Positions 10,472 to 25,314 of a stretch of 27,593 nucleotides of DNA are shown here, piece by piece. The position numbers and the translations under genes were made by a program. The stretch lies in the IMG/VR virus record IMGVR_UViG_3300017727_000116, positions 1 to 27,593 of that record. One strand, given 5' to 3'. The first letter of the stretch is position 1, and every line of letters starts with the position of its first letter. The DNA comes from a virus. A model generated the notes under the pieces. It did not search any database and was not told where the DNA came from. It saw only the letters and a program-made list of their open reading frames with translations.

Positions 10472-12526
10472 CTATACGTCAATACCGTAATTTACATATG
10501 AATTCGCAATATATGGATTACTAGAATCTGTAGACCTAATTGTAATCGATGATTGGGATTTTTCACTTACTTGAGTTGGTGTTTCATCTGGTGTTTGTTG
10601 AGCAGAAACATCAATTGGTGGTTGTACAAGCGGGAGTATTGTTGTTGAACCCTCGGATGCATTACCACCAGTTCTACCGCCACCACCCGTTCGTCCACGA
10701 TAAACTTTAATTTCTATTGGAATTGGTTTAAATTTTGGTTCTATTAGTGATTGATTAGAATTAGATTGAGTTGAGTTTGGATGACTTGTTCCGCCACCCG
10801 TTGCCGGTGGAGTTACTCTTTCTAATTCTTTTCTCTTCTTTTCCCTTTCTCTTTCAACCAATTCCTCAACTTGTTTATTGAGTTTTTTAACCATCACAAA
10901 TTGTATTTTTGTAAGTTCTTCAGATAATTCATTATTTTTCTTCATTAAATTGACGCCTTCAATGAACTGTTTGAACAATCTTCCGGCGTTATTGTTTATT
11001 GCATACAAAAATGGTTTGAACATTTTTGTAGACATAGAATTCATAACAAATTCACCCTTTGCAAGTAAGGCATGAATCGTATCTTGCATTGATGGAGCAC
11101 CAGGAATGATGCCACCTCTACTTAATTTTTGTGGTTCTAATACACTATGTTTTTCTTTTAAAATGGATTCCGCTGCCATTCGTTCAGCAAGTGGTGTATC
11201 CTCATTTTTATATAATTTTACTAATTCATCTTTATCAGTATCATTGTATTTGTTTATACCTTCTTCTACACTTTTCTGTGATGGTAATTCAGAAGCACCT
11301 ACTGGAGATAATGTTGAATTTGTTAATATTGCTGCAGCTGCAGTTGCTATTGTTATTTTCGCTGCCGCACTACTTAAAAGAGTAGCTCCTACAGGACGCA
11401 TACCTGGTATCGGTACAAACATCGCTCCCACACCAGCTGCTACCACTAACCCTGCCAACACACTAGTCGGAATACTAAATTCTGGTTGTTGGATAGGTGA
11501 GTTGTTAGGATCAAACGTTCGTCTCCCTTCACCTCTTCCTGAATATGTTGGATCAGGTGCAACGATCGGGTTAACAGGTTGTCCTATAGGTGGTGCTACC
11601 AAACCTGGTGTTACTGGTGGTGCAACCAACCCTTTTCCTAATAATGCTGCTGCTAGTGCAGTTAATGTTAATGCTCCAATTCCTAATGCTGCCGTTACAC
11701 AACCCAATACTGGTCCACAACCACCTCCCAGTCCTCCACCTTTTCCTCCACCTGGTTTATTTCCACGGAAAAGATTAAATAATTTTCGTAATCTATTTGC
11801 AAATACGATTAATGATACGATCTTTTTTATTACTGCCAGTGTAAGAATAGTAAAGAATATTTCTTTCCAATAGTTTTTTAGGAATGCAAATACTGCAATT
11901 ACTTTGTCTCTATTTTCCTTATCTTGCAACCATTTCCAAACACTATTAACAAGTATTCCTGTACCCACTAAAGTCAAGAATTCTATTATCTTATCAAAGA
12001 TACCTTTAATAGGTGTTACTGCTTTAGTAACAAATCCTTTTATACCAGATCCAGAATCTTTACCTTTTTCTACAAATTTTTCTTTTTCACCTAATTTTTT
12101 TGTTCTTATCTTTTTCTTTTCTATAGCAAGTTTATCTTTTCTTTCTTCTATTCTTGCAGCAAAATCTAATGCAAGTTGTTTTTGAATTTCTACTAGAATT
12201 GAATTAGTTTCTGCAAGTTCAGAACCAATTAAATTTGTGCCATTTATCTCTGGTTTATCAATTCCTTTCGATTTTTTTGGTTTTAAAACTATTTTATCAA
12301 CAATTTTTAAAGTATTCGTTGATATAACTGGTTTTTCAACAGTCTTTAAAGATTCTGCTGTGATAATTGAAATTCCAAGTCCTTTAATAAAGGACATTTT
12401 GGATGTTTTTAAATCTGGTCCTTTAACAACAGAATCAATTTTTTGACTAGAGGAATTCAATGGGGAAGAATTTTTCCCCATTTTTGGAAGTGATGGTGCT
12501 TTATAAATTTGAGATTGTATTGCCAC
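10472..12526 (-). CDS. Tape-measure-like tail protein (684 aa)
   Basis: Several long hydrophobic segments are visible ('IIEFLTLVGTGILVNSVW', 'EIFFTILTLAVIKKIVSLIVF', 'VTAALGIGALTLTALAAALL', 'VLAGLVVAAGVGAMFV'). Near residues 470-500 is the motif 'SRGGIIPGAPSMQDTIHALLAKGEFVMN', which matches the 'GG.iPG....D.v.AlL..GEfV.n' signature of phage tape-measure proteins. Helical Lys/Glu-rich regions flank it. The start is a GTG immediately after the stop of the 57-aa gp51-like gene. Likely role: sets tail length or fills the tube lumen, as gp29 does in T4 (590 aa). The signature is a good sign; identity with gp29 is inference. Confidence 0.75.
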   Translation of the reverse strand: MAIQSQIYKAPSLPKMGKNSSPLNSSSQKIDSVVKGPDLKTSKMSFIKGLGISIITAESLKTVEKPVISTNTLKIVDKIVLKPKKSKGIDKPEINGTNLIGSELAETNSILVEIQKQLALDFAARIEERKDKLAIEKKKIRTKKLGEKEKFVEKGKDSGSGIKGFVTKAVTPIKGIFDKIIEFLTLVGTGILVNSVWKWLQDKENRDKVIAVFAFLKNYWKEIFFTILTLAVIKKIVSLIVFANRLRKLFNLFRGNKPGGGKGGGLGGGCGPVLGCVTAALGIGALTLTALAAALLGKGLVAPPVTPGLVAPPIGQPVNPIVAPDPTYSGRGEGRRTFDPNNSPIQQPEFSIPTSVLAGLVVAAGVGAMFVPIPGMRPVGATLLSSAAAKITIATAAAAILTNSTLSPVGASELPSQKSVEEGINKYNDTDKDELVKLYKNEDTPLAERMAAESILKEKHSVLEPQKLSRGGIIPGAPSMQDTIHALLAKGEFVMNSMSTKMFKPFLYAINNNAGRLFKQFIEGVNLMKKNNELSEELTKIQFVMVKKLNKQVEELVEREREKKRKELERVTPPATGGGTSHPNSTQSNSNQSLIEPKFKPIPIEIKVYRGRTGGGGRTGGNASEGSTTILPLVQPPIDVSAQQTPDETPTQVSEKSQSSITIRSTDSSNPYIANSYVNYGIDV

Positions 12527-24660: not shown

Positions 24661-24879
24661 TTACTTAATTTTCTTTATATTCAAAGAAAATTCGAAATAG
24701 ATATTTACTTCTCGATTGAAAAAGCAAACTATCTTATTCAAAATTATATGAAATGGTTTTGGTTGCTTTTTTTTACCCTCGTTAAGAATGAATTCAATAC
24801 CACGATTAAAGTGATCTGTAGACTTATTTATGCCTTCTTCAGACGATTTGATGTTTTTTGAGGAATCTGATTGTGTCAA
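24661..24879 (-). CDS. Hypothetical protein with TTG start nested in the glutaredoxin gene (72 aa)
   Basis: 'MTQSDSSKNIKSSEEGINKSTDHFNRGIEFILNEGKKKQPKPFHIILNKIVCFFNREVNIYFEFSLNIKKIK'. The charged N-terminus is followed by strands with a basic end. The frame overlaps the last 41 nt of the glutaredoxin gene. The start is TTG, with AGGAGG 5 nt upstream inside the glutaredoxin coding sequence. An ATG just before it is followed at once by a stop (ATG CGT TGA), so it cannot be the start. It fills the gap between two clear genes in the same direction, which supports it over the opposite-strand frame. Confidence 0.7.
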   Translation of the reverse strand: MTQSDSSKNIKSSEEGINKSTDHFNRGIEFILNEGKKKQPKPFHIILNKIVCFFNREVNIYFEFSLNIKKIK

Positions 24880-25075
24880 CGCATCCTCCTAAATTTTCTT
24901 GATCACATTGTACCTGGGGAAATGTAGATCCTTCTCCAAATTGAGAATAAAATTCTTTTTTGTTGAAGTCTTCATCTAAAGTATAAACTGTAAAGTCTCT
25001 ACCTGTTAATTCTAACACTTGTTTGATTTTATAGCAATGGGGGCAATCACTTTTTGAATAAATTGAAAATTTCAT
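24839..25075 (-). CDS. grx: Glutaredoxin (78 aa)
   Basis: The family is evident: 'MKFSIYSKSDCPHCYKIKQVLELTGRDFTVYTLDEDF' with redox-active CPHC at residues 11-14; 'STFPQVQCDQENLGGCVDTIRFLKK' holds the cis-Pro (TFPQV) and the glutathione-binding GGC-D motif. Size is typical. It supplies electrons for phage ribonucleotide reductase or host redox targets. It is the first gene of a six-gene early operon. Its leader carries the structured RNA and terminator at 25115-25211, so expression may depend on readthrough. No clear ribosome site is seen. Confidence 0.93.
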   Translation of the reverse strand: MKFSIYSKSDCPHCYKIKQVLELTGRDFTVYTLDEDFNKKEFYSQFGEGSTFPQVQCDQENLGGCVDTIRFLKKHQIV

Positions 25076-25108
25076 ATCAACTAAAAAAATTTAAACACAA
25101 TACTTTTT

Positions 25109-25124
25109 AAGTATAAAAGAAAAG
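25109..25124. repeat. 16-bp element also present at 22301-22316
   Basis: AAGTATAAAAGAAAAG occurs exactly in both places (plus strand). Here its minus-strand form supplies the U-rich tail of the terminator and then ATACTT, which can pair with the following AAGTAT. Confidence 0.75.
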
Positions 25125-25139
25125 GGAGGAAAACCTCCC
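25115..25139 (-). terminator. Intrinsic terminator upstream of glutaredoxin
   Basis: On the minus strand GGGAGG-TTTT-CCTCCC is followed by TTTTCTTTT. It ends the candidate small RNA and lies 40 bp before the glutaredoxin ATG. Confidence 0.88.
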
Positions 25140-25211
25140 GAATCTTTCACCAACTACCTTTCTCACCACAGAAAGGATCTTTATTCCCAAAGATACAAGG
25201 ATTATAAAGAT
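25115..25211 (-). ncRNA. Candidate structured small RNA or leader attenuator (~97 nt)
   Basis: Between a perfect promoter and an intrinsic terminator lies no ORF, but three perfect stems follow one another on the minus strand. They are ATCTTT-GGGAAT-AAAGAT (25194-25177), CCTTTCT-GTGGTG-AGAAAGG (25176-25157, directly adjacent), and GGGAGG-TTTT-CCTCCC (25139-25124, the terminator). A 17-nt single-stranded linker (TAGTTGGTGAAAGATTC) joins the last two. It could be a stand-alone small RNA of about 97 nt, or a leader that attenuates the glutaredoxin operon 40 bp further on. I recognise no known RNA family. Confidence 0.55.
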
Positions 25212-25217
25212 ACGAAT

Positions 25218-25246
25218 ATTATACTCTATAAAAAACTAAGTGTCAA
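25218..25246 (-). promoter_or_regulatory. Consensus sigma70 promoter
   Basis: The minus strand has TTGACA (25246-25241), exactly 17 nt, then TATAAT (25223-25218): both hexamers are perfect. The start is expected near 25211. It drives the structured RNA and, on readthrough, the glutaredoxin operon. Confidence 0.92.
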
Positions 25247-25256
25247 CCGGTTGACA
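25241..25256. promoter_or_regulatory. 16-bp palindrome over the -35 (possible operator)
   Basis: TGTCAACCGGTTGACA is a perfect 8+8 palindrome. Its half-site contains the -35 hexamer of the minus promoter and, by symmetry, a TTGACA on the plus strand. It may bind a dimeric regulator, which is inference. Confidence 0.6.
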
Positions 25257-25314
25257 ACATAGAAAATGTTGAGTAGAGTTGCTTTGTTAGTTTTCAAGAC
25301 CAGGTATAGCTTTT

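Follow-up and report, generated by a model that had tools for sequence, protein, structure and literature searches.

Analysis of the window (the whole 27,593-nt stretch of viral DNA, positions 1 to 27,593 of IMG/VR virus record IMGVR_UViG_3300017727_000116) reveals, on the minus strand upstream of a glutaredoxin gene (grx), a transcription unit that almost certainly specifies a conserved, structured, non-coding RNA. Comparison of sequences shows a conserved promoter, structure, and terminator and the lack of a conserved open reading frame (ORF), and the unit probably encodes a stand-alone early phage small RNA rather than an attenuator of the grx operon. We infer that the RNA is made early, acts in trans, and has a partner; the target and mechanism proposed below are likewise putative.

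The preliminary description of the unit, made from the window alone, comprised a perfect TTGACA-17-TATAAT promoter, a 16-bp palindrome over the −35 element, perfect hairpins of 6 and 7 bp, and an intrinsic terminator, with no ORF, together supplying everything needed to transcribe a non-coding RNA of ~97 nt. Except for the first hairpin, these elements are as described (Table 1), and their comparison among homologues indicates that promoter, structure, and terminator are conserved. The window contains just two perfect (12/12) matches to TTGACA-N17-TATAAT, one of which is this promoter (25246–25218), whereas 100 shuffled windows contain none. The other perfect match, at 611–639 on the minus strand, lies ahead of an operon of short genes (224–~600). 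The 97-nt RNA has a predicted folding energy of −32 kcal/mol (z = −3.4 relative to shuffled sequences). In particular, the outer arm of hairpin P1 begins at the predicted RNA 5′ end, the P1 inner helix is UCC/GGA, the 7-bp hairpin P2 follows directly 3′ of P1, and the terminator comprises GGGAGGTTTTCCTCCC (25139–25124; GGGAGG-TTTT-CCTCCC) followed by TTTTCTTTT. The 6-bp hairpin had been drawn with ATCTTT at 25194–25189 paired to AAAGAT at 25182–25177; this pairing is possible on paper, but its 5′ arm is not supported: both in the fold of lowest energy and in the homologues, AAAGAT pairs instead with the ATCTTT further upstream (25211–25206), and the second ATCTTT falls inside the conserved P1 loop in homologues.

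Table 1. Features of the RNA unit and its surroundings in the window
Feature	Position	Strand	Description
−35 hexamer TTGACA	25241–25246	minus	17-bp spacer to −10
−10 hexamer TATAAT	25218–25223	minus	17 bp after −35
16-bp palindrome TGTCAACCGGTTGACA	25241–25256		exact; overlaps −35
Predicted ~97-nt RNA	25115–25211	minus	start placed by spacing from −10; both ends predicted
P1 hairpin	25177–25211	minus	25211–25206 with 25182–25177; inner 25201–25199 with 25187–25185; conserved 11-nt loop
P2 hairpin	25157–25176	minus	7 bp, 25176–25170 with 25163–25157; near-invariant GUGGUG loop 25169–25164
Single-stranded linker with UUGGUG	25140–25156	minus	between P2 and terminator
Intrinsic terminator	25115–25139	minus	stem 25139–25134 with 25129–25124; U-run to 25115
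TATACTTA, window version of conserved TATAAATTA box	25108–25115	minus	3′ of terminator
Glutaredoxin gene (grx)	24839–25075	minus	nearest downstream gene

The unit recurs in divergent phages. A first set of 80 IMG/VR loci was recruited by glutaredoxin protein, and inspection of their upstream DNA revealed the RNA unit; a core-pattern scan gave at least 119 stretches (at least 70 distinct sequences, including loci already collected), nearly all of which contain the full unit, and a second sequence pattern yielded further copies. The result is at least ~90 distinct homologues, present in contigs of T4-like cyanophages and in one isolate, Synechococcus phage S-SRM01, which excludes a chance origin of the unit. 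All counts derive from redundant metagenomes and refer to the matches listed, and the hosts of most contigs are predicted from gene content and DNA similarity to Synechococcus phages. S-SRM01 is the sole isolate among the matches listed, and its unit, with a predicted RNA from about 10976 to 11076 of the record, is unannotated and located between two annotated genes. Seven other cyanophage isolates (S-SKS1, S-T4, S-CRM01, S-SSM7, P-SSM2, P-HM2, and Bellamy) have no convincing copy. A covariance-model comparison, suggested in the preliminary description, was carried out with a model made from 61 copies, including the window copy (89.5 bits) and excluding S-SRM01, which scores 83.8 bits. The same model gave no match in 291 cyanobacterial genomes, a weak negative because only 14 candidates were scored per genome. 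Candidate cellular homologues (four pattern matches among 84,980 genomes) were rejected; all lack hairpin 2 and the terminator.

Two altered forms of the locus were also observed. Truncated copies in two contigs (L105, 12585–12650; L206, 6437–6502) comprise the promoter, P1, and half of P2 and then pass straight into Gly-rich coding sequence, as if the RNA had served as a recombination junction. In two other contigs (L061 and L063), the same promoter lies upstream of grx, but the leader that follows it is AU-rich, has diverged strongly, and shows no clear terminator; it may be a degenerate RNA or a different RNA at the same site.

Compensatory changes among homologues, the absence of which had been proposed as the refuting observation, favor the RNA. 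In an alignment of 68 distinct rows fitted to the covariance model, 98.9% of cells pair, and there are 96 two-sided compensatory cells, versus a mean of 26 for shuffled alignments (0 of 500 as high) and 3–25 for slid structures. An unfitted MAFFT alignment agrees (50 compensatory cells versus 19.5 shuffled). The changes are located mostly in P2 and the terminator, with a few in P1, which is itself nearly invariant. Specifically, the P2 stem is variable among homologues, and its GUGGUG loop is near-invariant, as is the P1 loop UUGUANCUUUG; the linker UUGGUGG is conserved. The −35 and −10 hexamers, the greater part of P1 with its loop, the GUGGUG loop, the U-run, and the TATAAATTA box are each ~90% or more conserved, compared with only 20–60% for the sequence that precedes the promoter. 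The σ70 promoter is present at a constant distance in 89 of 90 distinct copies among those listed, 67 of them with a perfect match, and each of the 61 copies has a strong terminator (−7.7 to −15 kcal/mol). Homologues share no conserved coding frame (at best, 40 of 61 copies are open in one frame), and an encoded peptide was rejected, the frame being disrupted by P2 length variants. A pseudoknot between loop 1 and the linker, considered by eye, was also rejected, since loop 1 varies between A and U where the linker is constant.

The palindrome had been taken to suggest tight control of the promoter, and this proposal is not supported for the family: of 71 distinct −35 regions among the copies listed, only 12 contain the dyad GTCAA-N4-TTGAC, and by this comparison the palindrome over the −35 element is not a family feature. 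In the window, the palindrome also yields a promoter-like site on the plus strand (25251–25279; TTGACA-17-TAGAGT, 10/12) directed against the upstream fibre-like gene. The same TGTCAACCGGTTGACA recurs ~40–55 nt from the contig ends of unrelated phages (L082, L084, L085, L087–L089, L091, and L093–L096), where the small genes beside it share a recurring RQAVSKAI motif that resembles a helix-turn-helix, and it may serve there as a separate operator.

The TATAAATTA box on the 3′ side of the terminator resembles a T4-type late promoter, which in S-PM2 is NATAAATA (PMC2984593). Assignment of the box as an ordinary late promoter was rejected: in S-SRM01, TATAAATT is not enriched before ORFs (1 versus 1.3 expected), unlike TATAAATA (27 versus 1.2 expected). 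In the whole window, TATAAATA is absent (~3.9 expected) and ATAAATA is enriched before genes; this phage may use a late promoter in which a different first base is preferred.

Most copies are adjacent to grx: among those listed, 107 of 127 are located 111–133 nt before it, and the operon behind most copies is grx-DUF2973-DUF6433-...-thyX-phoH. Attenuation of this operon, raised in the preliminary description, is thus a serious alternative: in a leader transcribed from the early promoter, P1 and P2 would bind a ligand or factor, as in an attenuator or riboswitch, the terminator would be bypassed, and grx and the nucleotide-metabolism genes would be transcribed. The tight linkage suits such control in cis and counts to that extent against a stand-alone RNA. 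RNA-bearing phages, moreover, have no σ70 promoter of at least 10/12 between the RNA and grx, so that grx might depend on read-through. In some relatives without the RNA (L006, L015, L019, L062, and L066), a σ70 promoter and a short hairpin resembling a terminator lie immediately ahead of grx, and the retention of both elements at grx in L006, L015, and L062 is also in keeping with an attenuator. A mutually exclusive terminator and antiterminator, as expected of an attenuator, is not seen, however; P1, P2, and the terminator are mutually compatible and can all fold at once, and neither an antiterminator nor any other alternative pairing is conserved. The separate conserved box 3′ of the terminator also speaks against an attenuator.

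Copies away from grx also argue against an attenuator. One lineage, represented by several contigs (G004, G005, and G010), has grx placed 4 nt after a different gene, with an intact but promoterless RNA copy ~6.7 kb upstream. In G004 and G005, a complete RNA copy precedes another operon, which keeps its own TTGACA-17-TATAAT and resembles the short-gene operon at the left end of the window, where the related genes are preceded by such a promoter but not by the RNA. In another contig (L151), the gene 3′ of the terminator has its own σ70 promoter, and in three (L145, L151, and L188) inserted genes separate the RNA from grx. One separated copy (L121 group) has lost its promoter, which speaks against a stand-alone RNA. 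Because the hairpins do not compete, no antiterminator is found, and copies off grx stand ahead of operons with their own promoters, we regard the stand-alone RNA as the probable reading and the attenuator as possible but rather unlikely. The stand-alone RNA is further favored by the fixed distance of the promoter, the compensatory changes, the conserved loops, linker, and terminator, and the lack of an ORF. It is improbable that the unit is just an insulator that bars early transcription from the grx operon and yields the RNA as a by-product: the strong conserved terminator is well placed for this, where the tail-fibre region meets the grx operon, but the compensatory changes in P2, the near-invariant loops and linker, and a near-perfect promoter aimed at a terminator would be left unexplained.

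To our knowledge, few non-coding RNAs besides tRNAs have been described in T4-like cyanophages. Within the literature covered, which comprised open-licence papers, the RNA is a new family of phage-encoded structured small RNA, so far known only from T4-like cyanophages; none of the 4227 families of Rfam 15 gives a gathering-score match, in line with the preliminary statement that no RNA family was recognised. By sequence comparison it has features of this class, namely its own promoter at a constant position, a structure backed by compensatory changes, an intrinsic terminator, and no conserved frame. Palindromic CRISPR repeats of the GTTTCAATCC..GGATTGAAAC type are faintly like P1, and P1 could conceivably mimic a host repeat. 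Small non-coding phage RNAs acting as RNA anti-CRISPRs (Racrs) do exist (PMC10651486), but a search of 390 cyanobacterial genomes gave four single matches and no array-like multiples, and the Rfam matches include no CRISPR repeat family, making such a function very improbable.

CfrI (Millard et al. 2010, as reported in PMC2984593) likewise is a non-coding RNA from a T4-like cyanophage, S-PM2, but by that report it is an antisense RNA of ~225 nt complementary to psbA and to a gene for a homing endonuclease, whereas the window RNA is ~97 nt, intergenic before grx, and equipped with its own terminator. Cyanophage S-CREM1 carries members of the Rfam families wcaG, manA, and glnA (cis-regulatory) and abiF (sRNA) (PMC9964418); these also are conserved structured RNAs in cyanophage genomes, but their covariance models do not match the window RNA, and their context and structure differ. 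Trans-acting phage sRNAs are small and exert their effects on transcripts other than themselves (review PMC12197685), and the window RNA has a layout that would suit this class (5′ structure, single-stranded linker, terminator), with a candidate target described below.

For the stand-alone RNA, we propose that host RNA polymerase would transcribe the ~97-nt RNA early from its own consensus σ70 promoter and would stop at the intrinsic terminator, short of grx. P1 and P2 would form the scaffold of the RNA, and the loops UUGUANCUUUG and GUGGUG, together with the linker UUGGUGG, would probably provide the surfaces that touch a partner, either RNA or protein, inside the infected cell. A scan for base-pairing targets, which covered S-SRM01 only, indicated that base pairing is possible between the P2 region UUCGGUGGUGUGAA and UUCACACCACUGAA, which may itself form a hairpin and is positioned just before the start codons of gp179 (89,334) and an unannotated ORF (90,318); the pairing narrowly exceeded the best of 20 shuffles. 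The only trace of the UUCACACCACUGAA motif in the 21 other records searched is one match with three mismatches, and a near match in contig G002 is inside a long ORF. The complementary hairpin before these two genes is a candidate partner and only a lead. In the same part of S-SRM01 (L271; 88000–91500), several consecutive genes have similar GC-rich leaders (near 88,770, 89,334, and 90,318); these place CACCAC in a hairpin loop close to the start codon, and segments upstream are repeated.

The RNA is widespread in metagenomic phage contigs, and the isolate S-SRM01 allows testing. The consensus host-type promoter suggests strong early expression, and the covariance model and near-invariant loops make tests of expression, partner pull-down, and mutation straightforward. 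We tentatively suggest that, in many T4-like cyanophages, the GUGGUG loop and UUGGUGG linker of a trans-acting early RNA may seize either an RNA-binding protein of the host or phage or host mRNAs, the latter for example by kissing interactions with start-codon CACCAC hairpins of the kind seen in the S-SRM01 lead. If so, a trans-acting RNA would reprogram the cell early in infection.
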